A model generated the notes under the pieces. The model saw only the letters and a program-made list of their open reading frames with translations, made no database searches and was not told where the DNA came from. From Martelella radicis (GTDB lineage: Bacteria; Pseudomonadota; Alphaproteobacteria; Rhizobiales; Rhizobiaceae): a DNA stretch of 64,000 nucleotides. A program made the position numbers and the translations under genes. Position 1 is the stretch's first letter. Every line of letters starts with the position of its first letter. The stretch is from NCBI RefSeq assembly GCF_014196625.1, contig NZ_JACIDZ010000001.1:186001-250000 (forward strand), given 5' to 3'. Below are positions 1,626 through 19,993 of the stretch, piece by piece.

Positions 1626-3503
1626 ATGATGTCCCGCGAACAGATGAGGCGACTGCTCGTCGCGTTTCCTCTAGTCGGCCTTACGACGGGCCTTGTTGCC
1701 CGCTATGCAGGGTATTCCGACCTGTCGGTTGCAGCCTGGTTCGCGGCGACCCTGCCTGTGCTTGCCTTCTTGATCGTTGACGCGGTCGCGTCCTTGAAGC
1801 GCGGCGAATTCGGTATCGATCTTCTGGCAGCCCTGTCGATGAGCGGAGCGCTTGCCTTCGGCGAAACGCTGGCCGCGTCGATTGTTGCCCTGATGTATGC
1901 CGGTGGAAGCTATCTCGACGTGCTTGCCGACCGGCGGGCGCGACGCGAAATGACGGCGCTTCTGGCGCGCGCTCCGCGCACGGCGCTGCGTTATCGCAAC
2001 GGACGCACCGAGGAGGTGCCGGTGGGGACGATCCTGCCGGGCGACAGGCTGATGATCCGGCGGGGCGATGTCATTCCGGCCGATGGCGAACTGCTTTCCG
2101 GCTCGGCCGTTCTCGATCAATCGGCGCTGACGGGCGAGGCCGAGCCTGTGCGCCAGTCCTCGGGCGGCAGCCTCTTGAGCGGGGCGACCAATGTCGGCAA
2201 TGCCTTCGACATGACGGCTCGGCGGGCTGCGGCCGAGAGCACCTATGCCGGTATCGTCCGGCTTGTCGAAAGGGCACAGGCCGCCAAGGCGCCGATGGCG
2301 CGGCTCGCCGATCGCTATGCGTTGTTCTTTCTTGCTGCGACACTTCTCGGCGTGGCTGCCACCTGGTGGCTCACCGGCGATCCGCTGCGGGTTGTCGCCG
2401 TTCTGGTGGTCGCCACGCCGTGTCCGTTGATCCTGGCTGTTCCGGTTGCCATGATGTCCGGCGTCTCCTGCGCGGCCCGGCGCGGCATTCTGCTGAAAGG
2501 CGGCAAGGTGATCGAAGCGATTGCCTCGGCGCGTTCAGTGGTTCTGGACAAGACCGGGACGCTGACTGTCGGAAGGCCCGGACTGACGGCCATCCACGTC
2601 TCCGATGATTACGGCGAGGACGAACTGCTTCAGCTTGCCGCATCGCTGGATCTTGCCTGCAAGCATCCGATGGCTTCGGCTCTGGTTTCGAACGCCAAGA
2701 CCAGGGGCCTTTCGCTCAGCCAGCCGGAGAAGGTCGTCGAGACGCCGGGCGAGGGGGTCGAGGGCGTCGTCGAAGGGCGTCGCGTCGTCGTTGGCGGCCG
2801 TCATTTCATCGAAACTCACTGTCGTGGCGGAGGGGGCTTGCCGCGTGGCCAGAGGCGCGCGGTGGCGGCCGGCACCTCGGTCGTCAATGTGCTGGTTGAC
2901 GGAAAGTTCGCCGGTGAGATCCACTTCTCCGACCGGGTTCGCGCGGGCGCACGGGCCGTGTTCGACACATTGCGCGCCAATGGTGTTGAAAACATTTTGC
3001 TCGCAACGGGCGATGCAGGCGCTGCCGCACGGCACATGGCTGCCGGACTGGGTTTCGACCGGGTCCTGTCGGACCTGACCTCCGACCAGAAAGTCCTGAC
3101 CGTGCTTTCCGAACGCAAGAACGGCCCGGTGATGATGGTGGGCGACGGCGTCAATGACGCGCCGGCGCTGGCGGCCGCCGATGTCGGCGTTGCCATGGGC
3201 GCGCGCGGTTCGGCTGCTTCCATCGAGGCGGCCGATGCCGTTCTGCTGCTCGATGATCTCGGACTTCTGGTGCCCGTCTTCGCGATTGCCCGGCGCACCA
3301 TGCGGATCGCCTATCAGAGCATGATCGCCGGCATAACGCTTTCGGTCGTGGCAATGGGCTTTGCCGCAGCCGGCCATCTTGATCCCGTCGCCGGTGCGCT
3401 TCTTCAGGAGGCGATCGACCTGGCCGTGGTTCTCAACGCGCTGCGTGCATTGTCTTTCGGGCTAGCGGGGGCCGAAGGCGATGGAGCTACCAGCCGACGG
3501 TGA
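1626..3503 (+). CDS. Heavy-metal translocating P-type ATPase (P1B-like, TPC motif)
   Basis: The 625-residue product carries the P-type ATPase signatures in order: actuator TGE at residues 169-171, transmembrane metal-site motif TPC at 264-266, phosphorylation loop DKTGT from Asp308, the HP pair of P1B pumps at 347-348, and the hinge motif GDGVND at 506-511. It therefore should couple ATP hydrolysis to transition-metal export across the inner membrane. There is no N-terminal HMA domain, no CxxC, and no C-terminal hemerythrin domain. TPC instead of CPC or SPC argues against a classical Cu+ pump; TPC is known from the P1B-5 group (Ni/Fe), which normally carries hemerythrin. I start at ATG 1626 rather than the open frame from 1485, because the added 47 residues look non-coding. 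The 3' end overlaps the convergent CHAT gene by 17 bp. Confidence 0.85.
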   Translation: MMSREQMRRLLVAFPLVGLTTGLVARYAGYSDLSVAAWFAATLPVLAFLIVDAVASLKRGEFGIDLLAALSMSGALAFGETLAASIVALMYAGGSYLDVLADRRARREMTALLARAPRTALRYRNGRTEEVPVGTILPGDRLMIRRGDVIPADGELLSGSAVLDQSALTGEAEPVRQSSGGSLLSGATNVGNAFDMTARRAAAESTYAGIVRLVERAQAAKAPMARLADRYALFFLAATLLGVAATWWLTGDPLRVVAVLVVATPCPLILAVPVAMMSGVSCAARRGILLKGGKVIEAIASARSVVLDKTGTLTVGRPGLTAIHVSDDYGEDELLQLAASLDLACKHPMASALVSNAKTRGLSLSQPEKVVETPGEGVEGVVEGRRVVVGGRHFIETHCRGGGGLPRGQRRAVAAGTSVVNVLVDGKFAGEIHFSDRVRAGARAVFDTLRANGVENILLATGDAGAAARHMAAGLGFDRVLSDLTSDQKVLTVLSERKNGPVMMVGDGVNDAPALAAADVGVAMGARGSAASIEAADAVLLLDDLGLLVPVFAIARRTMRIAYQSMIAGITLSVVAMGFAAAGHLDPVAGALLQEAIDLAVVLNALRALSFGLAGAEGDGATSRR

Positions 3504-6500
3504 CGAAGGGAGCCCATATGCCGGGGTGGCTCCAGGATGGGGCGTCTGGATTGTCGATCATGGCAAGGATAGCCCTGCGCAGCGCTTTCGCGCCGCTGTC
3601 ATTCCCGTTCGCTTCAGTAAGCGCTTCGAACATGCCGGTTGTCAACGCCACGGTCGCGTCGCTCTGAACTGCCCAATGCGAAACGACGAGACGGCGCGCG
3701 CCTGCATAAAAGAACGCGCGCGCTAACCCGGAAAGGCCCTCCGAGCCTTCGCCATCTTCGCCCTGAGCGGTGTTGCAGGCGGAAAGCAGGACCCAATCGG
3801 CATCAAGATCGAGCTCCGCGATTTCGCTTGCCGTCAACAGGCCGTCGCGCATTCCCGCCATGCCGTCAATCGCATCGTCAAGCGGGGTCAGGGCGAGAGC
3901 CGGCTCCTGCAGCCCGTTGGCTTCGCCGCCCATCAGTCCGTGAGTTGCAAAGGCTATGATGGCGGGGCTCTTGAGGTCGGCTGCCGCAAGCGCGCTTTCA
4001 TTGGCCGCATCCCCCAGAAGCAGATTGCCGCCGTCATCGGCAACGATTGCGTTGAGGGTCTCCAGTTCGAACCCGGTCTCAGGCAAGGGCGCAAGGTTCA
4101 ACCAGGCCGGATCCTGGCGGAAATGCGGATTGCCTATGCCGAGGAACGAACCGCCCGTCGCTTCCGGGGCGCCATCGGCGCGAAGCGCGCGCAGTGTCGA
4201 AGGCAGGGGCAATGTGGCAAACGCATTGTCGCGGATTGCCCAATGCGCTGCGCGAAAACGCTCCGGTCCGGTCAGTTTTTCCTCCGGCGCTTCGGCAACC
4301 ATTGCCGCAAACGGTATCGCCTGCAGTGGCCCGTCGGGCGCGATAAGCAGGGTTGTCCCTTCGGGAAGAAGCGTCAGCACCGGGCCGAGCGCCTTTTCAT
4401 AAAGTGTATGCGCCAGCGCGAGGTCGAAACCGTCCTCGGGCGACGCGGTAGGCGTTTCGCCGAGATCGAACGGCGTCATCGCGCCGCGAACCGGCGCGCG
4501 CAGCGGCCCGCGCGGATCAAGCGCCTTGCGCAGTTCGCGTACTGTTTCGTCGAGCCAGTCCCTGTCAACGAGAGTCCGTTCCCAGATCACGTTTTCGGGC
4601 GTCACGACGAAGACGTGCAGGCCGCGGTCTGTCAGGAGATAGGTTGCCAGCGCTTCGTCTGGGTGCAGAAACCCGCGCGCCTCGTCAAGGGCAAGCGGCC
4701 GGAAGGCGATGTGATCGCGGAATGCCGGATAGGCGGCGTCAAGCTCGGCCTCAACTGCATCCAGCCTTGGTTCGATGTCCGCGAGCAGGTCGTACCGGGT
4801 GATCGCCTCGTCGCCGGCGCGTTCCAGGATGCGGTTGCGCTCGGCTATCAGGGCATCGCGCCTGCGCAAAAGCAGCGCCAGCTCATCAGAACCGGCGCTC
4901 ATCCGCGCCGTCATCGCGGCGATCGCGCGTGCGGCGCTGCTCTGGCGCGCAAGCTGGATCTGCCTGAAGGCGTCATCGAGCATCTTTGCGTAGTAGCCCT
5001 CGCCGGCGGATGAGGCGTAGCCCTTGTCGAGCGCATTCTCGAAGGGGAAGAGATATGGTCCGGTCTGGCTGAACCCGTCATTTACATTGACGGCATCCAT
5101 CGGCCCGGCAATCATGCTCTCCTCCAGAAGGTCGAAGCCGAGATCGACGCCCTGTTCCATGATCTCGGACAGGCGCGCGATCTGTTGCTGCAGAAGGCCT
5201 TCGGAGCGCGCAGGAATGCCGGCAAGAAAGGCTTCGGCCGAGCCCGCGGCTGTTTCGGAAAGAGACAGACGCAGGCTGAGATCGTCGCGCAGTTCGCCTT
5301 CCACCGTCAGGCCGAGCCGGGCAAGGCCGGCGGCGGCTTCCGCCGTCTCCAGAAGGGAGGCGGCTGTAGAGTAATACACATCTTGGTAGAGCGTGCGCGC
5401 CCTGTCGTGCATACGGAGCGCCTCCGCCGTCCGGGCCAGCATCAGCCGCGTATCGGAAAGCTTGTGCTGGGCGAGCGTGTCGGAGGTGAAGACAGCGCCG
5501 ATTTCGGAGAGGGTGGCAAGCGTATTATCGACGAACTCCAGAGCTGACGGATCATCAAGCACGCTGTCATCGAGGGCGCTGACCATGATCGATACGATCT
5601 CGAGCAGGTCGACGCCGTCTTCGTAGACGAGGTTGTCGCCCTTCGCCGAAATGACGGCCATTTCGTTCATCAGCGCGCCGACTTCCGCTTCATCGATCTC
5701 CGTCGCACCGGCGACAATCAGAAGCGAACGCAAAACGGCGACGCGGGCCTCGTCGAGGCTCTCGGAATTTTCAAGGGCCGCACGCGCCGTGCCTGAAGCG
5801 GCATCGTGGTCGCCAAGCTCCCATTCCAGCACGGCGAGACGGGCCAGCGCCTTTGCACGGAGGCTCGGCGGCGCCGCTGCTATGAGCGCAAGATAGGCGG
5901 AACGCGCCTCGATCTCGAAGCCCTGTGCATTGAGCGCCTGGGCGAGAAGATAGTGATAGTCGTAGTTGGCCGCTCCAGTGATCTCTTCGTATTCGGCGAT
6001 CGCCAAGCGCAGCGGATCGATCGTCAGTTCCGGAGCGGGCACGCTGAAGGAGCGGCTCGTCAGATAGGCATCCTGCACGCGCGTGGCCGCGATCGTCTCG
6101 GGCGCGAACCGGTCGGGTTGGCTGGCATTGTAGCTTTCGGCGAGCCCTGTCGCAGCGGCATAGGATGATGCGGCCTGAGCGAGGAAGCCCAATCTCGCCT
6201 TGGCCCAGCCCTCGATCCAATAGAATTCCGGATAGCGCGTCACAAGTTCCGGGCGGTGCGCCAACGCGGCCTGGCTCGCATCGAGAGCTGCGGACGCATC
6301 GCCCGCATTGACGTAGGTGAGCGCCAGGTAATAGGCGAGGCTTGCGCGCTCGACCGGATTTCCAGGAGCCTGGTCATAGATCTCGATCGCGTCTTCCATT
6401 ACGTCAGCGGCCGCGATGTAGTCGCCGTCCTGAAACAGGGTCGAAAACCGCTGGAACAGAGACTGGAAATGGGCCGGTTGCTCTTGGGCTCGCGCCGGGT

Positions 6501-6579
6501 GAACCAGGACCAGGAGAGCGAGGAGCCAGACGGCAAACGGCAACAACCGGCCCGGCGGAGACAAGGGCGCAGGCCTCAA
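3487..6579 (-). CDS. Exported TPR-CHAT domain protein (caspase-clan protease)
   Basis: The 1030-residue product begins with a signal-peptide-like segment (basic start, hydrophobic LLALLVLV, then PARAQEQ). A long helical tetratricopeptide-rich region covers about residues 35-560, and a C-terminal CHAT domain covers about 700-1030. The CHAT catalytic pair is intact: His880 in FATHG and Cys935 in LLSACNT, followed by ARRLVVSHWAV and the closing HPGIWAPFVTVG. CHAT domains are cysteine proteases related to caspases and separases. The start is TTG at 6579; TTGA overlaps the TGA of the upstream hydrolase gene, and AAGGACAG lies 11 nt before it. The open frame reaches 6813, but that part is the hydrolase gene read out of frame. 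The pair is probably translationally coupled and acts in the periplasm. Confidence 0.85.
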   Translation of the reverse strand: MRPAPLSPPGRLLPFAVWLLALLVLVHPARAQEQPAHFQSLFQRFSTLFQDGDYIAAADVMEDAIEIYDQAPGNPVERASLAYYLALTYVNAGDASAALDASQAALAHRPELVTRYPEFYWIEGWAKARLGFLAQAASSYAAATGLAESYNASQPDRFAPETIAATRVQDAYLTSRSFSVPAPELTIDPLRLAIAEYEEITGAANYDYHYLLAQALNAQGFEIEARSAYLALIAAAPPSLRAKALARLAVLEWELGDHDAASGTARAALENSESLDEARVAVLRSLLIVAGATEIDEAEVGALMNEMAVISAKGDNLVYEDGVDLLEIVSIMVSALDDSVLDDPSALEFVDNTLATLSEIGAVFTSDTLAQHKLSDTRLMLARTAEALRMHDRARTLYQDVYYSTAASLLETAEAAAGLARLGLTVEGELRDDLSLRLSLSETAAGSAEAFLAGIPARSEGLLQQQIARLSEIMEQGVDLGFDLLEESMIAGPMDAVNVNDGFSQTGPYLFPFENALDKGYASSAGEGYYAKMLDDAFRQIQLARQSSAARAIAAMTARMSAGSDELALLLRRRDALIAERNRILERAGDEAITRYDLLADIEPRLDAVEAELDAAYPAFRDHIAFRPLALDEARGFLHPDEALATYLLTDRGLHVFVVTPENVIWERTLVDRDWLDETVRELRKALDPRGPLRAPVRGAMTPFDLGETPTASPEDGFDLALAHTLYEKALGPVLTLLPEGTTLLIAPDGPLQAIPFAAMVAEAPEEKLTGPERFRAAHWAIRDNAFATLPLPSTLRALRADGAPEATGGSFLGIGNPHFRQDPAWLNLAPLPETGFELETLNAIVADDGGNLLLGDAANESALAAADLKSPAIIAFATHGLMGGEANGLQEPALALTPLDDAIDGMAGMRDGLLTASEIAELDLDADWVLLSACNTAQGEDGEGSEGLSGLARAFFYAGARRLVVSHWAVQSDATVALTTGMFEALTEANGNDSGAKALRRAILAMIDNPDAPSWSHPGIWAPFVTVGW

Positions 6580-8333
6580 TTCGCGCCCTGTCCTTCTGGC
6601 GCGATATAGGTGTCGAGCCGGCCTTCGATCTCGCTTGCGGCCGCCTCGTCGGTGACAAGTTCGGAAATCAGGGCGGAGATGTCCTCGCGGGTGATCTCGG
6701 ACTTGCTCCACAGATGGCTGATCATGCCGATCATCATTTTGTCGAAGCAGCCGCCCTTCCGGTATTTCCAGGCCGTTTCTCCGGCCTCGGTAACGGTCTC
6801 CGTCATGCCGCAACGCACGCCCGGCGGCGGATTACGCCAGATCAGCGAAACGATGTCGGCAAGGGCGGAACTGTCGTCTGCGAAATAGGTATGCGCCAGC
6901 ATGTCCTCGCCGAGATCGGACATGTCGATCGTGTCGAACAGCTCATCCGTCGTCACGCTGTCGCCGCCCTGTCCGGCACGCGGCGCATTGCCATGCAGCT
7001 TCTTCGAGGCGACCAGCGCCCAGTCATTCTCCGAGGTATAGAGGGTGAGACGTTCGGCCAGCGGATGAATGGTTTTCATCATCTCCTTGAAGAGGCCGGC
7101 ATCCACATCGGGCGCGGCGAAGAAAACCTGGCCGAAGACCGGATCGTTGCCTTCCGTGACGCTGTTTCGAAGCGCCATCAGCTCCAGTGCATCAGTCAGT
7201 GCGCGGTTACCCATGCTGTGGGCGACGATATGGATCGTATCTGCGCCGGATCGGTCGCGCAGGTCCTCCAGGAACATGGAAAGCCGCCTGCCGCTGAGCC
7301 TGACCACGGCAGTATCGGCGACATAGCGCACCGTCTGGCCGGCCGACGGCCAGGAGTAGAGCACCGGAACGCCGCGATAGTCCATATCATAGGCAAGCTG
7401 GGCGGCGCGCTTGGCGGCGGCATCGAAGCGGGTGTTGAACCCATGGATGAAGACAACGATCTCCTTGCGCTCGCGCGCCTCGAGTTCACTGTTCATCCGG
7501 GCGAAATAGGCGTTCGCCTGCATGGGGTCGACCTTCTGGACCATCACATGCTTGGCGGGCGAGGGGCCGAACTCCAGTTTCCAGATCGAGGGCGTCTCGA
7601 TCGCGCCCGGCACATGGGTATCGGGAATGGTGACGGTGACGACGCCATATTCGAGGTCGCCGCGACCATAGCCGTAGAAGTCGGCGGGATCGGTATTGCC
7701 AGTGCGCGCCCGGTCGGTTGCATAGAAGACGTCGACGGCGCTGAAACCGCCCTCCAGGTTGCTGCGCTTGTTCATGCGCATCGACATGATCGCGAAGTTG
7801 GCCTGGCCGGCGAATTCCTCGGCGGCAGCCGTGTCGCCGCGCAACCTGGCGATCTCGGCCTTGCGGTTCAAGAGTTCGGCCAGCACCTGGCCGGCCTGTC
7901 CGCCGTTCCGGCGATAGGCGATCTGCGTGTCGAGAACGCGCAAGGCCTCGCGATAGGCTCCCGCCTCGCCGTAGAGATCGGCGGCAAGGTCCAGATAGGG
8001 GAGCGGATTGCGATCAAGAACGGCGCTCATCCTGATCGCAAAATCTGCGAGCCCCTCGGCGGCGGCCGCCGCCGCCGCCGTTTCACCCGCTTCCTGCAGG
8101 ATTTCGAGCCGGAGTGCCGAAAGGTCAAAATAGATCTCCGGATCGGGATCCGGCATTTGCTCAAGCGCGGCGATTGCCGTTTCCACCATGGCGAGCCGCT
8201 TAACGGGCTCTTCGACTGCAGCCAGCTCAAGCTCGAAACCGATCGGGTCGAAGGTTTCCGTTTCCTGGGCGAAAGCTGGCGGGGCCGCAAGCAGCGGCAG
8301 AAGGGAGAGGAGGGCAATTCGCGCAAGACGCAT
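6576..8333 (-). CDS. Exported alpha/beta hydrolase, DUF900 type
   Basis: The 585-residue protein has a clear signal peptide (residues 1-23, ending APPAFAQ). Residues 30-190 are helical with a TPR-like pattern. A DUF900-type alpha/beta hydrolase domain follows from about residue 200 (DVFYATDRARTG is the usual entry). The oxyanion loop FIHGFN is at 295-300, the nucleophile Ser373 is in AHSMGN, an acidic candidate is near 409-411 (APDVDAG) and His481 is in AHTYF, so a complete catalytic triad is likely. The natural substrate is unknown; related enzymes act on esters or lipids. It is the first gene of the leftward operon, 149 bp from the divergent caspase-like gene, and its stop overlaps the CHAT start. 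Confidence 0.85.
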   Translation of the reverse strand: MRLARIALLSLLPLLAAPPAFAQETETFDPIGFELELAAVEEPVKRLAMVETAIAALEQMPDPDPEIYFDLSALRLEILQEAGETAAAAAAAEGLADFAIRMSAVLDRNPLPYLDLAADLYGEAGAYREALRVLDTQIAYRRNGGQAGQVLAELLNRKAEIARLRGDTAAAEEFAGQANFAIMSMRMNKRSNLEGGFSAVDVFYATDRARTGNTDPADFYGYGRGDLEYGVVTVTIPDTHVPGAIETPSIWKLEFGPSPAKHVMVQKVDPMQANAYFARMNSELEARERKEIVVFIHGFNTRFDAAAKRAAQLAYDMDYRGVPVLYSWPSAGQTVRYVADTAVVRLSGRRLSMFLEDLRDRSGADTIHIVAHSMGNRALTDALELMALRNSVTEGNDPVFGQVFFAAPDVDAGLFKEMMKTIHPLAERLTLYTSENDWALVASKKLHGNAPRAGQGGDSVTTDELFDTIDMSDLGEDMLAHTYFADDSSALADIVSLIWRNPPPGVRCGMTETVTEAGETAWKYRKGGCFDKMMIGMISHLWSKSEITREDISALISELVTDEAAASEIEGRLDTYIAPEGQGAN

Positions 8334-8482: not shown

Positions 8483-10672
8483 ATGAAACACCTGTTCCGC
8501 CTGTGCTTGCTGGCATTCGTTCTCGGAGCATCCGCAGCGCATGCCGAATCCCGCGCGCTGATCATCGGGGTGGCAGGCTATGACGACCCGAACATTCCCG
8601 ATCTTCTCGGACCGACAAACGACGCCTTGCTGATGCGCGACGTGCTCGCGACATCCGGTTTCTCCGACATCACGCTTCTGGGCGATATGAACGAGGCGGA
8701 CGGGCGGCCGACGCGGGCGGTGATTCTTGACGGTTTTTCAGGGCTTGCGGCGCGCGCAAGACAGGGTGACCAGGTCTACATTCATCTCAGCGGCCATGGT
8801 TCGCGCCAACTCGATCCCGAGGGCGATGAGACCGACGGGCTGGACGAGATATTCCTGCCAGCCGACACCGCGATCGCCGAAGCCGGATCCGGCCTGGTGC
8901 CGAATGCAATCACCGATGATGAAATCGGATCGCTGCTTGCCGAAATACAATCGACCGGCGCCGATGTCTTCTTCGTTATGGATAGTTGCCATTCGGGCAG
9001 CGGTACGCGCGCCTTTGCACGCGGCGTGGCCGATCGACAGGTCAGCCCGGCGCTGCTCGGAATCGATCTTGCGGCAGCGCGCGCCGGAGGCTCGGTCCGA
9101 TCGGTAGATAGCGGACCGGATGCGGTCGGGCAGGCGGAGGGAAGCGGTCGCTTGATCGCCTTCTACGCGACGCGCTCGAACGATGTCGCCCGCGAAGTCG
9201 ATATGAGCAACGGCACGGTCGCCGATGACAGCGAATGGTTCGGACTTTTTACCGCCGCGATCGCCTCGCGGCTTGAGAGCGGGCAAACGCTCACCTACCG
9301 CCAGCTCTTCCAGTCCGTTCTCTCCGAACTGAACAGCGGCAGCGGTTTCGGAATGGGCGCGGTGCAGACGCCGCTCTGGGAGGGCGATATGATCGACGAG
9401 CCGGTCTTCGGAAAGGAAGGCCGCGCCGGCCCGACGCGTTTTCTCGTTGACGGAGACGCTGTTGATGCCGGTCGGCTGCATGGACTGGAAGAGGGAACGC
9501 TGCTGGCCCTTGTCGCCGATATCTCCGACCCGCAAGATGCCGTTCTCGGCTATGCGCAGGTGGAGGCTGTCGAACCGCGCCGCGCTTTTCTGCGACCGGT
9601 TGCCGATGACTGCGTGCCGGAAGCGGGCACGCTTTGCGCCTTTGCCGGCGGTCTGCCCGAGGCGGCGCGTTTCGCCCAGGTCGAGCTGAGCCCGGTCACG
9701 CTGACCATCGCCTTCTCGCCAGTGTTCGACGCGGAAACCGGCCAGCCGCTTTCGCCCGACGCACCGGAAAGCGGAATGGTCGCGGCGGCTCTCGAAGACG
9801 CATCCGCAAGAACCGGGATCGGCGCGGAATTTCCGGCCGAGATATTCGATGTGCAGATTGCACTCTCGCAGAACACGCTCTGGTTCGGCCCGGCTGCGAC
9901 GATCGATGGCGCGCCGGCGGGCCTTGCCTTCGGCCTTGCGGAGGATGAGCCGCGCCTCGTGCAGCTTCTCGGGCGCGTCCTGAGGGCGGAACGTCTGGCG
10001 CGCACGCTCGATGCGCTCGGGGAAGAGGCCAGCCCCTTCAATCCCTCGCCGGTCGCCGTCGATGTGGAACGCAATGCGAGCCCCATCGAAGCGCTGTCGA
10101 AACCCGGCGCGCGGGTTGATCCACGCCGCGAGTGCCAGGCAGCGTTGCGGTCGATGAGGGAAACGGGTTTTGCGCCTCTTCAGGGCATGGACGATCTCAA
10201 GCAATGCGATCTGTTGCGGTTCCGTGCCGCCGGCGAGCGAGACGGCCAGCGCGACGTCAACCGGATCCATATCGACGCGCAATACTGCGTCAATGTCGAC
10301 TATGAGCTTGTGGAAGGCGATCAGGCCCTGCGCGACCTCGGCGATCCCATGGTGATGTGTTCGGACTGTCCGGGACCGGTGCCCTATTCGGCGGGGTATG
10401 AGCGGCTTTATGTCCTTGTCAGCGAGCTTGAGGAAAATGCCGAAGCGCTGAACCTGTCCGGCGTTCTGGAAAACTGCACGGGCCGGGAGGGGACGCGCTC
10501 GGCCGCCGCCAGTGCGCTTTCCGGCGTTCTCGAAGATGCCGCCCGGCGCGGCAGGACGCGCGGAAGCATGGGGCTTGGCGGCGCCTTGTCGGATGTCTGG
10601 GTCGATCGCTATGCGTGGCGGGTCTTGCCGCGCGCTTCCGTCTTTGCCCGTGGTGAGGGGGGTACGCCGTGA
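8483..10672 (+). CDS. Exported caspase-like (peptidase C14) protein
   Basis: The 729-residue protein starts with a signal peptide (residues 1-21, ending SAAHA) and goes straight into a caspase p20-like domain (SRALIIGVAGY). The catalytic dyad is visible: His105 in HLSGHGS and Cys169 in VMDSCHSG, both in standard context. This places it with bacterial orthocaspases/metacaspase-like proteases, cysteine peptidases that usually cleave after basic residues. The remaining roughly 450 residues match nothing I recognise and contain several Cys near the C-terminus (MCSDCPG, ENCTG). I chose ATG 8483, with GGAGA upstream, over an ATG at 8450 because only 8483 gives a proper signal peptide. Its stop overlaps the GTG start of the MscS gene, so the protease and channel are probably cotranslated. 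Confidence 0.88.
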   Translation: MKHLFRLCLLAFVLGASAAHAESRALIIGVAGYDDPNIPDLLGPTNDALLMRDVLATSGFSDITLLGDMNEADGRPTRAVILDGFSGLAARARQGDQVYIHLSGHGSRQLDPEGDETDGLDEIFLPADTAIAEAGSGLVPNAITDDEIGSLLAEIQSTGADVFFVMDSCHSGSGTRAFARGVADRQVSPALLGIDLAAARAGGSVRSVDSGPDAVGQAEGSGRLIAFYATRSNDVAREVDMSNGTVADDSEWFGLFTAAIASRLESGQTLTYRQLFQSVLSELNSGSGFGMGAVQTPLWEGDMIDEPVFGKEGRAGPTRFLVDGDAVDAGRLHGLEEGTLLALVADISDPQDAVLGYAQVEAVEPRRAFLRPVADDCVPEAGTLCAFAGGLPEAARFAQVELSPVTLTIAFSPVFDAETGQPLSPDAPESGMVAAALEDASARTGIGAEFPAEIFDVQIALSQNTLWFGPAATIDGAPAGLAFGLAEDEPRLVQLLGRVLRAERLARTLDALGEEASPFNPSPVAVDVERNASPIEALSKPGARVDPRRECQAALRSMRETGFAPLQGMDDLKQCDLLRFRAAGERDGQRDVNRIHIDAQYCVNVDYELVEGDQALRDLGDPMVMCSDCPGPVPYSAGYERLYVLVSELEENAEALNLSGVLENCTGREGTRSAAASALSGVLEDAARRGRTRGSMGLGGALSDVWVDRYAWRVLPRASVFARGEGGTP

Positions 10673-12768
10673 GGAGAGACAAGTCGGTGAGGCTTGCCGT
10701 ATTCACCTTGATCCTGCTGGCCTTGCCGGCTGCGGTTCAGGCCCAGGGGACTGTACAAACGCCCGTTCAGCTTTCGCCGCTGGAGCGCCTGGGCGCCGTC
10801 CTGTCTTTCTTCGCCGACAATGCGACGGCGGCCTCCCAGAGGCTGGAGGCCCTGATGTGGGGGCTCGGCGACTTTCCCGCCGAAGTGTCCTTCTTTCTGC
10901 GTTCACTGAGCGAAGATGGATTCAGCCTCGCTGCGATCATTTTTCGGGTGGTTCTCTGTCTCGGTATCGGCGCTGCTGCCGAGGCAGTCTTCCGAATGAT
11001 CTTCCGCAGATTGAGGACCGGCCTCGACCAGAAGAGCCCGGTGCAGAGGGCCATCCATGTTGCCGTTGATTGCGCGGGCATCCTGATCTTCGCGATGGTC
11101 GGCGGCTGGCCGCTTTTGATGAGCGTGCAGGCGGATCCCGGTGCACAGCTTTTCGTCGTCACCTATCTGACGGCGTTCTTCGCCATGCGCGGTTTCGCGC
11201 TGCTGGCGCGCATACCCTTGTCGCCGCGCCGGCCCGATCTTCGCATCGTCGCACTTTCCGATCAGTCTGCCGGGAGGCTCTACTGGCAGTCCGTCGGTAT
11301 CTTCGCGCTGGCGATCTTCTTTCTTGCCACCACCTCGCTTCTCCGCCAGGCCGGCATGCCGGCCGATGAGACGCTCACGCTTTCGCTCGTCTCGCGATCT
11401 GCGGTCACGCTGCTGCTGATCTTCGCCTGTCTTAGCAATCGTTTCTCCGTGGCGGCGATCCTTGCAACCGATCCGGCAGGGCGCAGCCGCGGCCTGGGGT
11501 GGAAATCGCTGAGCGCAGTCTGGCACCTCTTCGCCATCTTCTACATCTGTCTTTCCTGGTTCGGCACGTCGGTGCTCTTGCTGTTGAACCGGCCGCAGGC
11601 CGGAACGCTTGCCGTCTTCAGCTTCATGGTTCTGCTGGGGCTCGTCATCGCTTGCCTGCTGATGGATGACTGGGCGGCGCGCGCCGATGCCCGCGATCGA
11701 GCAAGGCGGCGGGCAGCGCTAGCGGCAGAGCCGCAGATGGCGCTGCCGGAAGACGTGCCGACCTTCGCCCAGTTCTTCGCGCGCCTCGGGCAGGCAGCGG
11801 CGGTGCTCGCGGCGCTTCTGGCGCTGATCCGGCTCTGGAGCGGACCCTGGCAGGGGTTGTCCAATCCGCGCATCACCGCCATCATGCCGTCGCTGACGCA
11901 GCTTCTCGTTACGCTGGTTCTCGCTTATGTGGCCTGGCACCTGGTGCTGATCGGCTCGCAGCGCATGCTGCTCAAGGCAGCCTATGCGCAAGGGGAGGCC
12001 GAAACCGCGCGCGCCGCGCGTCAGAGCCGGGTTGCGACCGTGCTGCCGCTGGTGCGCAACACATTGCTGATCACGATCGCCTCCATTGCGACCATCATCG
12101 CGATCTCGGCGCTCGGCATAGACGTTCTGCCGCTGCTTGCCGGCGCCGGCATCGTCGGTATCGCGATCGGCATGGGCAGCCAGACGTTGGTCAAGGACAT
12201 CATCTCCGGCATTTTCTTCCTGGTTGACGACGCTTTCCGCGTTGGCGATCTCGTTGATGTTGGCGTTGCCAGCGGCACGGTCGAGCGGGCGGGCATCCGC
12301 TCGGTCCAGATTCGTCATCCGCTTGGGGCCATCCACACCGTTCCCTTCGGCGAGATCCGCACCATTGCAAACAAATCCCGCGACTGGGCATCAATGTGGC
12401 TGGAGTTCCGGCTGCCGCTGGAAACGGATCTCGACGGGCTGGAGCCGCGCTTTAGGGTTTTGAACGAGAAGTTGCTTGCAGAACCCGTGCATGGCCAGAG
12501 CCTTGTCGCGCCGCTCGAAAATGCCGGCATCGTGATGATCGACGATAGCGCGATGGTTTTGCGCATCGTCTACAAATGCAAACCGGGAACGCAGTTCGCG
12601 CTGCGTTCGGTTGTCTACGATGCCGTCCGGCGCATGTTCCGCGAGGCCGGCATTTCGATCGCGCCGCGTGAGGTGCGGCTGAGGGCGGAGCCGGACTTCT
12701 CCTATACGCGTACCAAGGATGTTGCGCCTGCGGCGAGGAACGACCAGGCGGAGGGTGGCGGAGGCTGA
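10669..12768 (+). CDS. MscS-family mechanosensitive channel
   Basis: The 699-residue protein has an N-terminal signal-like segment (VFTLILLALPAAVQAQG) and several predicted membrane helices. The conserved MscS pore helix and beta domain lie at about residues 475-540, with LAGAGIVGIAIGMGSQTLV lining the pore and then ISGIFFLVDDAFRVGD. MscS channels form homoheptamers in the inner membrane that open under membrane tension. The extra N-terminal helices put it with the larger MscS/YbdG-MscK-like members. The start is GTG 10669, overlapping the caspase gene stop as GTGA. Tight coupling to a caspase-like gene is unusual and suggests the channel is a partner or target of the protease rather than a general osmotic valve. 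That role is inference. Confidence 0.88.
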   Translation: MRRDKSVRLAVFTLILLALPAAVQAQGTVQTPVQLSPLERLGAVLSFFADNATAASQRLEALMWGLGDFPAEVSFFLRSLSEDGFSLAAIIFRVVLCLGIGAAAEAVFRMIFRRLRTGLDQKSPVQRAIHVAVDCAGILIFAMVGGWPLLMSVQADPGAQLFVVTYLTAFFAMRGFALLARIPLSPRRPDLRIVALSDQSAGRLYWQSVGIFALAIFFLATTSLLRQAGMPADETLTLSLVSRSAVTLLLIFACLSNRFSVAAILATDPAGRSRGLGWKSLSAVWHLFAIFYICLSWFGTSVLLLLNRPQAGTLAVFSFMVLLGLVIACLLMDDWAARADARDRARRRAALAAEPQMALPEDVPTFAQFFARLGQAAAVLAALLALIRLWSGPWQGLSNPRITAIMPSLTQLLVTLVLAYVAWHLVLIGSQRMLLKAAYAQGEAETARAARQSRVATVLPLVRNTLLITIASIATIIAISALGIDVLPLLAGAGIVGIAIGMGSQTLVKDIISGIFFLVDDAFRVGDLVDVGVASGTVERAGIRSVQIRHPLGAIHTVPFGEIRTIANKSRDWASMWLEFRLPLETDLDGLEPRFRVLNEKLLAEPVHGQSLVAPLENAGIVMIDDSAMVLRIVYKCKPGTQFALRSVVYDAVRRMFREAGISIAPREVRLRAEPDFSYTRTKDVAPAARNDQAEGGGG

Positions 12769-12856
12769 GCGTCGGCCTTCGTTTCGAGTGTTTCCTTCCG
12801 CAAAGGCGGATGGCAAAGTGACATTTGGCAGATCTAGATAGAAGCCGGAGGCGGGA

Positions 12857-15800
12857 ATGCGCAATCGACGGGAGCGATCGGAAGACAAGACCGCGCGGCT
12901 TGCCGCTGCGGCGACTGCTCTTTGGCTGGTGCTCGGTTCTCTGGTTTTCGCGCCAGCAGCCGGAGCCCTGGAGATATACCGGAACGGAGTGCGCTATGAC
13001 ATTGATGCCACGCTTCCGGACGGCGCCGACTTCGAGGTGGACGGTGTCGACCGAAAGTTTTCGATCGGCCCGGTCGAAGGCAATCTGCGCCTGATTCAGG
13101 ATACCGGGTATGATGATTGCGCCCGGCTTGTCGATGAGCGCGTGGCGAATTGGCGCAAGTATGGTTTTACGTTATCAGATCAACGCTTTACTTCTGACAG
13201 TGAATGTAGCGTCACGATCGGAACCCCCGCTAGCGACGCGTTCGCCAGCTCCTATTATATCCGGATTGACGATTGCGACTGCTTTTCAGCGCTGCATTTT
13301 CGCTATTCGCGCGACGACCGGGACGCCTATGAGGCTGCCTTTCCGGAGATCGTCGCCAGCATTCGCGCCAACAACGCGGCCTTGCCGCCTTCGTCAGGGG
13401 CAGGCCGCCCCGGCGATGCCGGTTCCGGGCATGCAGCGAGTGCGCTTTCGGGCCTTTCCTGCATCTCGGAGGACCTCTTCGCCCGTATGGACTTGGGCAC
13501 GCGCAACGAGTTCATGGTAACGGCATTTTCGGCCTGGTCCGCGATGAAGGTCGACGATATCGCCCGCGGTGCCGGAATCTGGGAGAACGAGGGCTACAGT
13601 CTCGATCTGGCGGATGGCAGGCTTGAGCGCGTCGCCGGGTTTCTGCCCGAGGCACTCGGTGCCATGGCGGAAGATGTGGAACGTTATGGCGATCGCCTCT
13701 GCCCGTTGGTCGTCAGCATGACCACTCAGGATCTGAATTACGGCTATGTCGGGCTCAGCGATCTCCGCTTCACCCAGCGTGATTTCAATTCGCTTTTTCA
13801 CGACTACCTCCGGCTCGCGCAATCGCTGATGATGCGTCACGGCTGTTATGCGGGCGCACTCGACGGCGCCTTCGGCCCCGCCAGCCGGGCGGCGTGGAAC
13901 CGCATGCGCCAAGGGTTGGGCCTGCAGCCGCGCGACGGAGAGTTCACCCCCACGGTTTCCGATCTTGCCGCCATTGCCGATATCCCGGTGACGGGCAGGG
14001 CCTGCGAAGACGGGGGAGGCGTTGTCGCCGAAAATGGCGAGGGAATCAGGCTTCTCGATTTTCTCTACCCGGCCCACCAATTGCCGCCGCTTGACCGACC
14101 GTGGGTGCGTGAAACGCTTGGGCCGGCCTTCGACCAGATGACTGCGCGCGGACGTTTCAGCGGACTTGAGCGGGAGGCTGTCGTCTCGCTTCTGCCGGAA
14201 GGGGCGGCGACAGCATCGACGGGCGCGGAAAGTCATGTCAGCGCCGTCGCGGAGCTTTTTGGTTATGACGGTCCGGCCTGGGGGGAGGCGGACTATTTCG
14301 CGGCCATGGAATCTGAACGCGCCGCGATCCCCTTCACGGTAGAGGCAGCGGCGCGCCAGAGCCAGTGGCGCGAGGTGCAGACCTATGACGTGCCTATCGG
14401 CATGTTTACCACGAGCGATTTCGGCCTCGTCCTCTCAATTTCCGACCGTGACGAGACAAGCCGTGTTGCCAATGTCGTGCTTGCGCATCCAGGCGCATTC
14501 GAGGCGCTCAAAGCCACGTCCGGGCCCGCCTATGAATATGTGCTTGCCGAACGCATGCTGCAGGGAGCGACCACCTTCGGCAAGTCCGCCGCAGGCGCTC
14601 GTGGTTTGCTGGAGGATGCCGCCGACAAGGGAGCGCCTTACGCCATGGCTCATCTCGCGCTGATGCTGGAATACGGGCAGGGCGGCGCGAAAGATCCGGA
14701 GCGCGCCTTGCGGCTTTACGAGGAGGCCGCCGCTGCCGGCGAGGGCTTTGCGATGGCGCAACTGGCAGTGAGGACTGACAAGAACACGTCCGAGGCTATC
14801 GCGAAGGCACTCTTTTGGTACGAGGCGCTGATTGGCGTGGCTGAGGAACGGATCGCCGACAGGGGGCCGGACGCCGACTGGGCGTCTGTTTATTCCTGGA
14901 TCGCAGATTTTCTCGCCAATCGGATGATGGACGGCAGTCCGGCGTTGTTGTCGCCTGCCGGAGACGCGTTGATCACGACTGCTGCGGAACAGTCTGCGGC
15001 GTTCGCGGCAAGGCTGGCCGAGACGAATTTGTGCGCTGAATGCGGTGCGGTGCTCGATGAGGCCGAGGGCGCCAAATGGCTGGCGATCGCTGCGGACAAC
15101 GGCGATACGGACGCGCTTTTCAAGCTGGTGCGGCTGATCGAGGCCTTTCCGCAGCTCTCCGACTACGCTGCGGAAAATTCTCTCAAGTTTTTCAAACAGC
15201 GCTATGAGCAAGCCCCGGATGACTTTGACGGCGCGCAGGCCCGGCGAGAATCGGCCGTCGGGGCGGTAGCGTATGATGTCAGGCTGGCGCGGGCGTCGCT
15301 TGCCGGTCCCGAAGTGGTGAAAGCGGCGGAGGCGGCGCTGGAGCGCGTCTGTGACGATGATTGGGAAAGTTGCGAAAATGTCGCCAAGCAGCTTTCCGCC
15401 GGGCGTTACGGCGCCGATCTCGTATCTGTCGGGTTTGATCGACTGAAGGCTCTGGACTCGCTCGAACTTGTCGATGTCCTTGCCGCATATGGTGATTTCC
15501 GAGGGGCTGCGGAGCGGGCTCAGCGCGCCGAGGGTTACGAACTGAGCGGACTGGCCGATCCCCGTTTCGACGAGCAGGCAACCAATCTCCGCGACGCCAC
15601 GATCCGGCGCCTGGTCGAGAACCGCGCGCCCGGCGACCTGCAGTCTTTGCCGGAGGGGCTTGTTGGCTTTCTCGGCCTGATGGCAGCCAATGGAGACAAG
15701 GCGGCTGCGGACTTTCTGAGACTGATCCGCGCCGCCGACCCCGAGGTCGAGCCGCCCTTGCCGGATCTTCAGTCGGCCGCTGAAACCTTCGCCGAGGTGC

Positions 15801-17728
15801 GCGCGCGCGGCGGGACCAGCCTCGGTCTCGTCAATTCAGCCCGCCGCTACGGCGATGCGCTGCAAGCTTCTGGCGACAATCGCGAGGCTCTCGCGATGGA
15901 ACTGACCGCGCTTTCCGCAGAGCTGAGGCTCGACCGGCTGCGCGAACTTTCCGACGGGCCGCTTTCCGCCGAGCTCACCCGCGTCTGCCATCTTTCCAAT
16001 GCCAGCGAACGGGCCTTTGCGCTCGGCTCGGATTCGCTTGCCGTGCTGCTTGCTAAGCAGGCGATCAACCGGCTGCAGGTCGTGCGGGCGGACCTCGCGA
16101 CTTTGCCGGAGGACCTGCGCGGCTGTTTCCGCGACCTGATCGCCGACAATTATCGCTGGCTGGCCGATCTCTTCATTCAGCAAGACCGGCTGAGTGACGC
16201 CGAATTCGTGCTCGGCCTCCTGAAGGATTTCGAGGCTTTCCAGTTTACCGATCGCGATCTCGATTTCGTCGGCGACGCCTTTGCGACATTGCCGCTGACG
16301 GAAGAGGAAGCAGTGCTCCAGGCCGCCATCAACGCGCTTCAGCCGCCGAGCATTTCGGATGTACGCGAGCGCGATGCGCTGATTTCTCGGCAGGAGGCGG
16401 GAACGCTGACAGATGCCGAGGAAGAGCGCCTCAACGCCCTGAACGCCGATCTTGCTGCGGCGAACGCTGCCTATGAGGCCGGTCTCCAGACCATTTTCGC
16501 TGCGCTTTCCGACCTGGAGGAAAGCGCGCCGGCAAGCGAGACCCCGCTTGCGGAGCAATCCGTGCAGGCCACCATCCTTTCAGGACTTGAGACGAATGCG
16601 GTAGCGCTGCACTATCTCGTCATGCCGGACCGGCTCAACATTCTGCTGACATCGCGCGATGAGCAGTTGAGCTATACGATCGATAGCTGGAACGGGGAAC
16701 CGTTTTCCGAGGCGACGCTCAACGGCGCGCTTGCCGATCTCCATCTTGCCTTCAATGATTTCTACAGCGATCCGCGCGCCGAGAGCGAGTTGCTCTACGA
16801 TCTCCTGATCGACCCGGTCGCCGATGATCTTGCCCGCATCGATCCCGATCTTCTGCTGGTCTCGCAGGATCGGCGCCTGCGCTATCTGCCCTATCAGGCG
16901 CTTTATGACGGTGAGCGCTATCTGGTGGAACGTTATGATGTTGCGAGCCTGACCAGCAGCGAGAGCGAAATCACCGGCGTCGCCGTGGCCGAGACGCCCT
17001 TCGCTGGCTTGGGACTGACACGGGCGGTCGGCGATTTTTCCGAACTTCCTGGCGTGGCGCTGGAATTCGGCGGACTCTTGAGCGGCGAGGAACGTTATGG
17101 CTTCATGGAGGGCGAACTGGCGCTCGACGAGGCCTTCGACAGGGCGGCGCTTTCCGAGGCGCTGACGATCGGCGGGTCGTCGCCGGTCGGGGCGGGAACG
17201 GTTCATGTCGCCTCCCATTTCGTGCTCGGCAACACGGAGGACGATTCCTATCTGCTTCTGGGCACCGGCGAGCACCTTCCGATCAGCGAAATCAAGGGCG
17301 GAGCGGGGGATTTCGACTTTTCCAATGTTGATCTGCTGACCTGGTCTGCCTGCGAGACGGGCCGCGCCAATCCCGGCTCCGACGGGCGCGAGATCGAAAG
17401 CCTCGCCAAGATCACCGGCGAACGCGGCGCCAAGGCGACGCTGGCCACGCTCTGGCCGGTGCTCGATATATCGACGCCGCTGATCATGCAGCGTTTCTAC
17501 GAGCTCAGGGAGTTCGGCGGATTGTCGAAGGCGGAGGCGCTGGCAACCGCCCAGCGCGAATTCATTCAGCGCCGGATCGGCGATCGTGACGTGCTCGACC
17601 GGGAGAGCGTCGTCTTCCAGACCGCGGGCCGCCTCGGCCTTCCCGCCGATCCGGGGTCGCCGATCACCTTTGATTTCGACCACCCGATCTTCTGGGCGCC
17701 CTTCATGCTGATGGGGAATTGGCGATGA
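12857..17728 (+). CDS. Large exported CHAT protein with peptidoglycan-binding-like and Sel1 repeats
   Basis: This 1623-residue protein has an N-terminal signal or anchor (hydrophobic at about 19-38, ending PAAGALE). A peptidoglycan-binding_1-like stretch spans about residues 317-355 (MMRHGCYAGALDGAFGPASR). Sel1-like repeats follow at about 575-640 (YAMAHLALMLEYGQGG, then FAMAQLAV). A long helical middle leads to a CHAT domain at about 1230-1623. The CHAT dyad is present: His1454 in VASHFVLG and Cys1499 in TWSACETG, with the usual LATLWPV and HPIFWAPFMLMGNW ending. The ATG follows GGAGG. The gene lies 88 bp after mscS and overlaps the next gene by ATGA. It is probably a periplasmic protease tied to the cell wall. 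This CHAT domain is diverged from the one at 3487. Confidence 0.85.
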   Translation: MRNRRERSEDKTARLAAAATALWLVLGSLVFAPAAGALEIYRNGVRYDIDATLPDGADFEVDGVDRKFSIGPVEGNLRLIQDTGYDDCARLVDERVANWRKYGFTLSDQRFTSDSECSVTIGTPASDAFASSYYIRIDDCDCFSALHFRYSRDDRDAYEAAFPEIVASIRANNAALPPSSGAGRPGDAGSGHAASALSGLSCISEDLFARMDLGTRNEFMVTAFSAWSAMKVDDIARGAGIWENEGYSLDLADGRLERVAGFLPEALGAMAEDVERYGDRLCPLVVSMTTQDLNYGYVGLSDLRFTQRDFNSLFHDYLRLAQSLMMRHGCYAGALDGAFGPASRAAWNRMRQGLGLQPRDGEFTPTVSDLAAIADIPVTGRACEDGGGVVAENGEGIRLLDFLYPAHQLPPLDRPWVRETLGPAFDQMTARGRFSGLEREAVVSLLPEGAATASTGAESHVSAVAELFGYDGPAWGEADYFAAMESERAAIPFTVEAAARQSQWREVQTYDVPIGMFTTSDFGLVLSISDRDETSRVANVVLAHPGAFEALKATSGPAYEYVLAERMLQGATTFGKSAAGARGLLEDAADKGAPYAMAHLALMLEYGQGGAKDPERALRLYEEAAAAGEGFAMAQLAVRTDKNTSEAIAKALFWYEALIGVAEERIADRGPDADWASVYSWIADFLANRMMDGSPALLSPAGDALITTAAEQSAAFAARLAETNLCAECGAVLDEAEGAKWLAIAADNGDTDALFKLVRLIEAFPQLSDYAAENSLKFFKQRYEQAPDDFDGAQARRESAVGAVAYDVRLARASLAGPEVVKAAEAALERVCDDDWESCENVAKQLSAGRYGADLVSVGFDRLKALDSLELVDVLAAYGDFRGAAERAQRAEGYELSGLADPRFDEQATNLRDATIRRLVENRAPGDLQSLPEGLVGFLGLMAANGDKAAADFLRLIRAADPEVEPPLPDLQSAAETFAEVRARGGTSLGLVNSARRYGDALQASGDNREALAMELTALSAELRLDRLRELSDGPLSAELTRVCHLSNASERAFALGSDSLAVLLAKQAINRLQVVRADLATLPEDLRGCFRDLIADNYRWLADLFIQQDRLSDAEFVLGLLKDFEAFQFTDRDLDFVGDAFATLPLTEEEAVLQAAINALQPPSISDVRERDALISRQEAGTLTDAEEERLNALNADLAAANAAYEAGLQTIFAALSDLEESAPASETPLAEQSVQATILSGLETNAVALHYLVMPDRLNILLTSRDEQLSYTIDSWNGEPFSEATLNGALADLHLAFNDFYSDPRAESELLYDLLIDPVADDLARIDPDLLLVSQDRRLRYLPYQALYDGERYLVERYDVASLTSSESEITGVAVAETPFAGLGLTRAVGDFSELPGVALEFGGLLSGEERYGFMEGELALDEAFDRAALSEALTIGGSSPVGAGTVHVASHFVLGNTEDDSYLLLGTGEHLPISEIKGGAGDFDFSNVDLLTWSACETGRANPGSDGREIESLAKITGERGAKATLATLWPVLDISTPLIMQRFYELREFGGLSKAEALATAQREFIQRRIGDRDVLDRESVVFQTAGRLGLPADPGSPITFDFDHPIFWAPFMLMGNWR

Positions 17729-18459
17729 CGATAAGAAGAATGATGCAATTTTCGGTCATTGCATCGGTTTCATTGTTCACCGTTCTGGCCGCTTCTGCAG
17801 CCTTCAGCCAACAAGGCACGGCCGAGGCGATCAGCGGGACGTGCTTTGCCGGGGAATTCGAACGTGGCGACAGCAAAATCCGCAACATGATGGTCAGGCT
17901 CGACCCTTCGGACAGCGACAGCCCCTACCTGATGACGCTCAGTCTCAGCTATTGGGATGTGCCTAACGAGCGGTTCGGCACCCTGGCCAGTTGTTCAGAC
18001 GGTGAAGAAGTTCATTGCAGCATCGAATGCGACGGCGGCAATGCCTTTCTGACCCTTGTTGATGGCGGCGGCCTGAATTTCAGAAGCGCACGTCTGCGGC
18101 TGGAGGACAACGAACTGATCGATAGTGCGCTTGCCAACGTGTTTGACGCCGATGGCGGCGAGCTTCGGGGCGAATTCAGGCTTGCGCCCGTGGAGGACGA
18201 GGCTTGCATTGCCGAGCCGGAGGTGATCTTCGCCGAACTTGAGATCGGCGACATGCTGCCGAGGGTGACGGCGCTGGAAGCCTCGCTCAACCGGTTGGGC
18301 CTGTTCCTTGCCTATCCGGACCCGGTCTTCGACGAAAAGACGAGGGCAGCGGTGATCGCCTTCCAGACGCAATACGGCTTTGCGCCGACCGGCGTCGTCG
18401 ATCAGGCGACCGATCGGGCGCTCAACACGATCGTGCGTTCGACCATCGGCGGCTGCTGA
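17725..18459 (+). CDS. Exported peptidoglycan-binding domain protein
   Basis: The 244-residue protein has a signal peptide (hydrophobic FSVIASVSLFTVLAASAAF, cleavage near FSQQG). A Cys-containing middle part follows that I do not recognise. The C-terminal peptidoglycan-binding_1 domain is at about residues 180-240 (LNRLGLFLAYPDPVFDEKTR, then AFQTQYGFAPTGVVD). The start ATG 17725 overlaps the upstream stop (ATGA) with GGGGA before it. An in-frame TTG at 17719 is possible but weaker. It is the last gene of the caspase/MscS/CHAT operon and shares the wall-binding theme with the CHAT protein before it, so it may position that protein at the murein. Confidence 0.8.
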   Translation: MTIRRMMQFSVIASVSLFTVLAASAAFSQQGTAEAISGTCFAGEFERGDSKIRNMMVRLDPSDSDSPYLMTLSLSYWDVPNERFGTLASCSDGEEVHCSIECDGGNAFLTLVDGGGLNFRSARLRLEDNELIDSALANVFDADGGELRGEFRLAPVEDEACIAEPEVIFAELEIGDMLPRVTALEASLNRLGLFLAYPDPVFDEKTRAAVIAFQTQYGFAPTGVVDQATDRALNTIVRSTIGGC

Positions 18460-18462
18460 GCC

Positions 18463-19194
18463 TTACATCTTCTCTTTGATGCCCTTGGAAACGAGCCACC
18501 AGTTGACGGGATAGGCGGTGATGAACCCTGCCCACATCGCGATCTGCATCATGAACCAGAACTCCACCGTCGTCACTTCGAGCTTCACGCCAAGCAAGTG
18601 GCGGAACAGGAAGAACTGGGCAAAGGCCATGAAGCCGTACATGCCGACCTGCCAGGACGTCAGCGACAGGAAATCGGCCTTCACCGCCTGGATAAGGCCC
18701 TGAGCGGGCGTCAGGCCGCGCATCGGCTTGATCGTGAAATACTGGAAGATCACGCCGAAGGAAAAGGCGAAGATGAAGTCGAGGATCCATACGGCGAACA
18801 TCTTCTCGGCAAAGATCGTCTGCCAGCCGAACCAGACGGCGATGGCCGGGACGAGGAAGGCGAGCCATTCGGCGACCAGATCGCCGAGCGCGCAGCCCGA
18901 GCCGCAATGGGCCGCCCCCTTGCCAACCATTACGGCGAAGGGTGTGTCAGTCATGTTCGGCGGCTTCTCATGGTTCTGCATGGCCCGGTGATGGGCTGCG
19001 CGGGTGGCGAGCCGGCCATAGCGGAAATAGGCCCACAACGCCGCAGCCGAGCCGAACAGCGTGACAAGGGGCCAGACCACATTCATGATCCACATATGCT
19101 GGGGGTTCCTGAAGACATCGACAGCGATGATGATCGCGGATCCGAGGCCGGCGAGGAGGGAAATGATGGCGAGCAGATGAAGCCATCCGGGCAT
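18463..19194 (-). CDS. DUF4396 integral membrane protein
   Basis: The 243-residue protein fits the DUF4396 family. It has an N-terminal pair of helices (LLAIISLLAGLGSAIIIAVD and the next), a His-rich loop (RAAHHRAMQNH), and the signature AHCGSGCALGDLVAEW at about residues 95-111. Four more membrane helices follow, then a basic C-terminus. The two Cys in CGSGC and the neighbouring Asp could bind metal, but no function is established for the family as far as I know. AAGGAG lies 7 nt before the ATG. It converges on the CHAT operon with a gap of only 3 bp, which leaves no room for a separate terminator. Confidence 0.85.
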   Translation of the reverse strand: MPGWLHLLAIISLLAGLGSAIIIAVDVFRNPQHMWIMNVVWPLVTLFGSAAALWAYFRYGRLATRAAHHRAMQNHEKPPNMTDTPFAVMVGKGAAHCGSGCALGDLVAEWLAFLVPAIAVWFGWQTIFAEKMFAVWILDFIFAFSFGVIFQYFTIKPMRGLTPAQGLIQAVKADFLSLTSWQVGMYGFMAFAQFFLFRHLLGVKLEVTTVEFWFMMQIAMWAGFITAYPVNWWLVSKGIKEKM

Positions 19195-19388
19195 GTTTCA
19201 TCTCCTTTGGCATTTGGCGCGGTGAAAATCCGCGCGCTTTGAATGAGCATCCTTATGTCTAAAAACCTCCGGGCCGGTCTTGTTCCGAGACGCCTGGCAG
19301 GTCCATTCGCCCGACTTCGCTCAAAAGGGGAGAACATTTGTCGCTCCCAGCCGTTTCTTCCGCACAGACATCTGAAAGGAGAAACGCC

Positions 19389-19880: not shown

Positions 19881-19911
19881 CCGAACTTCGTCCGTCAGAT
19901 GCGAAATAAGA

Positions 19912-19932
19912 AGCCGCCTCACTGAGGCGGCT
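19912..19932 (+). terminator. Stem-loop after the BON gene
   Basis: AGCCGCCTC, loop ACT, GAGGCGGCT: a perfect 9-bp stem 31 bp after the BON gene stop. No T-run follows, so termination strength is uncertain. Confidence 0.6.
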
Positions 19933-19956
19933 CAGACTGCTGTCGTCTGCCAGAAG

Positions 19957-19982: not shown

Positions 19983-19993
19983 CTCCGTTCTAG

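Follow-up and report, generated by a model that had tools for sequence, protein, structure and literature searches.

The window analysed here is a stretch of 64,000 nucleotides from the alphaproteobacterium Martelella radicis (Rhizobiales, Rhizobiaceae; assembly GCF_014196625.1, contig NZ_JACIDZ010000001.1, positions 186,001 to 250,000 of the forward strand), and coordinates are counted from its first letter. It carries an island of six genes in which CHAT1 and a DUF900 hydrolase lie on the minus strand, followed divergently on the plus strand by a caspase, an MscS-type channel, CHAT2 and a PG-binding protein (Table 1). CHAT1 is taken to start, with TTG as read, where it overlaps the end of the hydrolase gene by 4 bases, and its translation contains ATHG and SACNTA as the His and Cys motifs. 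The N-termini of all five soluble island proteins (CHAT1, hydrolase, caspase, CHAT2 and PG-binding protein) resemble signal peptides when judged by eye, from which we infer that these proteins are exported.

The island is flanked by a DUF4396 gene (18463-19194, minus strand) that eight of 13 genomes in the genus possess, and the nine flanking genes checked are ordinary. No clean empty site was found among the genomes of the genus compared: G510 lacks the island but shares, in pieces, the flank to its right (from about 18464 to 27852 of the window), the left flank not being joined there, and in G584, G587 and G588 the DUF4396 gene alone was matched from the flank. Elsewhere the window encodes a 1,521-residue GAF/multi-PAS/GGDEF/EAL protein (22059-26624, minus strand) and a pyruvate formate lyase-like glycyl radical enzyme (38428-40716, plus strand).

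Table 1. Genes and sites of the island, in window coordinates.
Feature	Position	Strand	Basis
CHAT1: TPR-like N-terminus and CHAT protease domain	3487..6579	-	Pfam CHAT E 7.2e-54
DUF900 alpha/beta hydrolase	6576..8333	-	Pfam DUF900 E 2.7e-45
Caspase, C14, metacaspase/orthocaspase-like	8483..10672	+	Pfam; structure model; ATG at 8483 and TGA at 10670-10672 in the window sequence
Catalytic His105 codon (SGHG)	8795..8797	+	Invariant in 10/10 aligned caspases; aligned to yeast-type metacaspase-1
Catalytic Cys169 codon (DSCHSG)	8987..8989	+	Invariant in 10/10 aligned caspases; aligned to metacaspase-1
GTGA overlap, caspase stop / channel start	10669..10672	+	Sequence
MscS-superfamily channel, YbiO-like architecture, cluster-linked clade	10669..12768	+	Pfam; NCBIfam NF008542 (below cut-off); tree; GTG at 10669 and end at 12768 in the window sequence
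Candidate alternative channel GTG start	10687..10689	+	Sequence; AGGAG upstream at 10672-10676
Channel pore helix and beta domain, residues 465-570	12061..12378	+	Pfam MS_channel_1st, MS_channel_2nd
CHAT2: Sel1 repeat and CHAT domain	12857..17728	+	Pfam CHAT E 2.7e-40
Exported-looking protein, C-terminal PG_binding_1 domain	17725..18459	+	Pfam E 1.9e-12; start at 4-base overlap with CHAT2

The caspase contains a Peptidase_C14 domain in residues 24-305 (E 1.2e-17; 64.9 bits against a Pfam cut-off of 21.4), and its motifs ND, GDETDGLDE and DSC align with metacaspase-1 (4f6o). The structure model (mean pLDDT 69.7) matches metacaspase 4 (6w8s) with a Z score of 23.9 and an rmsd of 3.2 over 241 aligned residues. 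By its domain, its His/Cys dyad and its metacaspase-like fold, with the DSCHSG and acidic motifs aligned, the protein belongs to the C14 metacaspase/orthocaspase type; it differs from the known members in the signal-peptide-like N-terminus, in a C-terminal region of about 420 residues beyond the domain and in the cluster of hydrolase, CHAT and channel genes around it. The EACC1-associated caspase model NF047832 scores 31.7 bits, under its curated cut-off of 140. Such aligned motifs favour Arg/Lys in metacaspases. Cleavage after positively charged residues is also reported for orthocaspases in a survey of these enzymes (PMC6426788).

An earlier note on this DNA had described a caspase-like protease ORF that overlaps a GTG-started MscS-type channel as GTGA, and the sequence and Pfam agree with this description. 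A channel start at the alternative GTG is possible, with a good ribosome site, and would abolish the overlap. Starts lying exactly at a 4-base overlap were counted, after rough gene calling, in 5 of 28 co-directional gene pairs of the window, three of the five inside the island; since the arrangement is common in the window it is weak evidence when taken alone, and the step from coupling to cleavage is rejected. Across genomes, the caspase/channel overlap is seen in five of the six loci where both genes touch. It recurs in G585, G589 and G586, in the last behind a caspase remnant, and as ATGA at 12196-12199 in Aliiruegeria (L132); in G590 the caspase ends with TAA and the channel begins with ATG after a short gap.

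The channel matches PF00924 with 60.6 bits against a cut-off of 20.2, and the MscS pore and beta domain are present (MS_channel_1st, residues 465-505; MS_channel_2nd, residues 506-570, E 1.6e-16), preceded by about 464-470 residues. Homology to YbiO (PDB 7a46, 9go3) covers residues 165-665, which correspond to most of the helix array and the pore, so that the N-terminal extension is a YbiO-type helix array and ordinary for a channel of this kind. The channel differs from YbiO in falling far under the equivalog cut-off of NF008542 (153.4 bits over residues 152-675, against 596) and in forming a clade of its own tied to the caspase cluster. The structure model places a 46-residue helix (37-82) ahead of the first membrane helix and shows long helices, but no sizeable soluble domain, up to the pore; its confidence is below 50 at residues 16-34, just past the signal peptide. 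Compared with MscS folds, the model gives a Z score of about 12 with a large rmsd, and the assignment as a channel therefore rests on sequence.

Hydropathy averaged over nine relatives resolves 13 hydrophobic segments, one of which is the signal peptide, and the loops richer in basic residues fall on one side of the membrane; from this distribution, loops 26-89, 154-160, 226-235, 307-313 and 388-411 are predicted to be periplasmic. In the nine-row alignment, none of these five contains a Lys or Arg kept in at least eight rows, and four of the five predicted cytoplasmic loops ahead of the pore do. A long basic loop, 333-368, is predicted to be cytoplasmic and is about 10 or more residues shorter in three of the nine rows.

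In a quick tree of 52 rows, a branch with SH-aLRT 100 separates the nine cluster channels from 43 generic channels of YbiO type, three of which are long-branched, with two of those joining; in this tree and the caspase tree, long ORFs were represented by the final 780 or 800 residues. All nine clade channels have a DUF900 hydrolase gene at a distance of up to about 6 kb; a CHAT gene is nearby in eight, and a caspase of the window's family occurs within about 7 kb in eight, once without a catalytic core; none of 14 generic control channels has a DUF900, CHAT or caspase gene in its 20-kb stretch. For the caspase (8/9 against 0/14) a Fisher test gives p about 2e-5, a value that ignores relatedness, five of the nine rows belonging to one genus. 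The channel of this clade is linked to the cluster, in at least four gene orders among the nine cases. It is also rare, being detected at E 1e-100 in 1 of 385 genomes of the class, the window's own; some MscS homolog is present in 287 of 297 genomes of the order. With a separate channel branch that travels with the same small cluster in marine-type Martelella, the pairing of channel and caspase looks real.

Within 13 genomes of the genus, caspase, channel and cluster-type hydrolase occur together in the same five and are all missing in eight; ortholog identity in the five is at least 68% for the channel, at least 68% for the caspase (in G586 present as a remnant) and at least 75% for the hydrolase. 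The other eight genomes have no caspase match, and their MscS and DUF900 relatives are distant only. CHAT1 is intact in four of the five cluster-bearing genomes, and G590 shows no CHAT2 or PG-binding gene within the piece covered. In the cluster of G586 (L129), the caspase (11745-12956) has suffered two deletions that preserve the frame, one of about residues 46-244, with both catalytic residues, and one of about 578-716; the CHAT1 region (14828-15531) has lost the catalytic core by an in-frame deletion, and the PG-binding gene is shortened; the ORFs of channel, hydrolase and CHAT2 are intact.

When named genomes were scanned with the caspase alignment, 249 relatives were found, and the best 80 were carried forward. 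The channel occurs in the flanks of three of these 80, namely two Martelella already counted and Aliiruegeria sabulilitoris; the flanks vary in length, some loci are cut, and a 97-aa, 17-bit MscS match in L133 was excluded from the count. No channel adjoins a caspase in the mapped regions of further caspase relatives; G183 has an MscS homolog of generic appearance (193 bits), some 20 kb away from its caspase and left out of the channel tree. One Sulfitobacter plasmid has the order caspase, hydrolase, channel and a caspase with WD40-type repeats, with a divergent CHAT gene, and a second carries the cluster without the channel. A tblastn search of plasmids with the channel at E 1e-60 returned no match; a clade member does lie on a plasmid, at 36% identity, so this cut was too strict. 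In 394 genomes of a Phaeobacter's family, 16 channels were recovered at E 1e-95, two of them at 775 and 463 bits and fourteen at 352 bits or less, none of the fourteen having a cluster gene in its 20-kb stretch; in the large searches two or three candidates were scored per genome.

The two high-scoring channels, both clade members, come from G1046 and G1073. G1046 carries channel, CHAT2 and PG-binding genes, the hydrolase, and a caspase followed by a WD40 protein in one stretch, channel and caspase being about 7 kb apart with an opposite-strand gene between them. In G1073 the channel is accompanied by a distant DUF900 relative (184 bits, against at least 662 in the other clusters), with no caspase or CHAT gene found within the 20-kb stretch around it; caspase relatives are located on other contigs. 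Both genomes have genes resembling ornithine cyclodeaminase and arginase, as recognised by eye, in the neighbourhood of the clade channel (G1073 and G1046; L233:2425-4482 and L256:10079-12974), an indication of a shared site. Channel-bearing clusters also encode proteins with WD40-type repeats, roughly 1,500 residues long, at L132:14214-18785, L212:16273-20691 and L256:3331-7995; caspase-like His and Cys motifs can be seen by eye in those of L132 and L256, and Pfam C14 matches the L212 protein only.

At the first 28 loci of the named-genome list (L130-L157), with calls made by a fixed set of query proteins, the next gene found behind the caspase is a trypsin in 16, a CHAT gene in 4, a channel in 3 and a hydrolase in 3, two being left without a call. 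At L136:12188-13258 and 15 further loci, the gene of an exported-looking caspase precedes that of a trypsin zymogen, in many cases accompanied by a rhodanese-domain protein, and more distant caspase-trypsin neighbours recur, for example at L165, L169, L170, L174 and L209. Arg precedes the I/V-x-G-G activation motif in all 14 trypsins that were aligned out of the 16 (L135, cut at its end, and L142, a 107-aa fragment, were dropped). On these features the trypsin zymogen appears to be a better candidate substrate of this caspase family than the channel. In a caspase tree of 41 rows, built without the remnant L129 and the cut or partial L135, L150, L152, L158 and L163, the channel label needs three changes: a channel-free Lentibacter caspase nests among channel-linked caspases, and the Sulfitobacter caspase stands beside a trypsin-linked one. 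These mixed labels indicate that the partner of the caspase has been exchanged.

The earlier note had compared the pair with caspase-activated gasdermins, the protease cutting the N-terminal part of the channel so that the pore opens. Such direct activation would agree with the overlapping adjacency in five of six touching loci, with the separate channel clade and with residues 16-34, which could be flexible according to the model, but we consider it quite improbable. The idea of a large cleavable extension is rejected on the homology to YbiO helices and the helices in the model; in an alignment of the kind that the note had asked for, no conserved cleavage site is seen in the predicted periplasmic loops, and the basic loop 333-368 lies on the predicted cytoplasmic side and varies in length. 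The note itself had held that a channel occurring without the protease would speak against its proposal, and this is the situation in one of nine cases (G1073, no caspase within 20 kb), while in G586 the channel ORF is kept intact beside a caspase without a catalytic core. Bacterial gasdermin operons, as described in PMC13236601, likewise have a protease adjoining a membrane-permeabilising candidate; here that candidate is a relative of tension-gated channels without a visible inhibitory tail, and no gasdermin match was obtained by Pfam or PADLOC among the six cluster proteins. What endures of the note's proposal is the association of protease and channel, supported by the separate channel clade tied to the caspase cluster; the overlap itself is common. 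On account of the same clade, a hitchhiking housekeeping channel is rejected as the likely reading: a housekeeping osmotic valve located in the island by chance would fit the near-universal presence of MscS-type channels in the order but is very unlikely given that the clade is separate and rare and that cluster-type genes accompany it in all nine cases seen, though in G1073 as a distant DUF900 relative only.

The channel might instead serve as an input that senses membrane tension or osmotic stress and whose state licenses the envelope proteases. MscS-type channels are described in the literature as gating on tension, and the channel can be kept in the absence of the caspase, a DUF900 gene being close by in all nine cases; no sensing partner or signal-relaying periplasmic domain of enough size was found, however, and this role appears unlikely. 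We hold an antiviral or cell-death role for the cluster, with the channel as the killing part, to be similarly improbable. To our knowledge, defence caspases act in the cytosol, and the cluster proteins, unlike these, look exported; the nine flanking genes checked are ordinary, and among the six cluster proteins PADLOC matched the caspase alone, through a generic model. In favour of defence stand the patchy presence in 5 of 13 genomes of the genus and the action of caspases and CHAT proteases in several defence systems, according to PMC12799240 and PMC11106740. The bacterial caspase systems described in PMC12799240 and PMC13236601 activate nucleases or gasdermins. The caspase-nuclease system canu resembles the island in having an effector gene next to the caspase, in TPR domains and in a gene content that varies (PMC12799240). 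It differs in that none of the six cluster proteins matches a nuclease family in Pfam and that these proteins look exported. Craspase/TPR-CHAT and SAVED-CHAT share the CHAT protease, which in Craspase has a dedicated protein substrate, Csx30 (PMC11106740; PMC11417357); in contrast to these systems and to type III CRISPR cascades, the exported-looking cluster proteins include no SAVED or Cas domain by Pfam. Among the literature matches listed, no caspase-MscS cluster is described.

The reading that we favour, with a probability of roughly one half, is an envelope-facing module of caspase, CHAT and DUF900 hydrolase with an exchangeable partner, either a trypsin or a channel, in which the channel is the membrane arm. 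Exported CHAT and caspase would form a periplasmic proteolytic relay in which the caspase would cleave partner proteins, themselves exported, after Arg/Lys; the adjacent trypsin zymogen would be its most plausible substrate in the majority of close relatives. For Martelella and a small number of Rhodobacteraceae, we propose the channel as membrane arm: on firing of the module it would alter ion or solute flux, probably in response to contact with the periplasmic proteins or to a changed membrane or wall, and not to conserved direct cleavage. The gene content, the catalytic motifs, the channel's separate clade and its shared presence or absence with caspase and hydrolase are established here; export, the choice of substrate, the sequence of the relay and the part played by the channel are inferred. 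Against this envelope-facing module speak the predicted periplasmic loops of the channel without a conserved basic residue, the channel found once without a nearby caspase (G1073, with a distant DUF900 relative) and once beside a remnant (G586), the distance between channel and caspase in G1046, the channel-free Lentibacter caspase nested among channel-linked ones, and the fact that five of the nine clade members come from one genus. A bolder version, put forward tentatively and as rather doubtful, is an extracytoplasmic inflammasome-like circuit of Alphaproteobacteria in which exported CHAT and caspase drive an exchangeable output; this would usually be a trypsin zymogen activated by a cut after Arg, with a dedicated mechanosensitive-type channel in its place in some lineages.

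With proteases that look exported, a dedicated channel branch and, in other genomes, a trypsin zymogen in the channel's position, the cluster would constitute a new setting for caspase signalling. A survey counts 3,075 alphaproteobacterial orthocaspases (PMC6426788), and for some alphaproteobacterial orthocaspases the cluster provides a concrete, testable neighbourhood.
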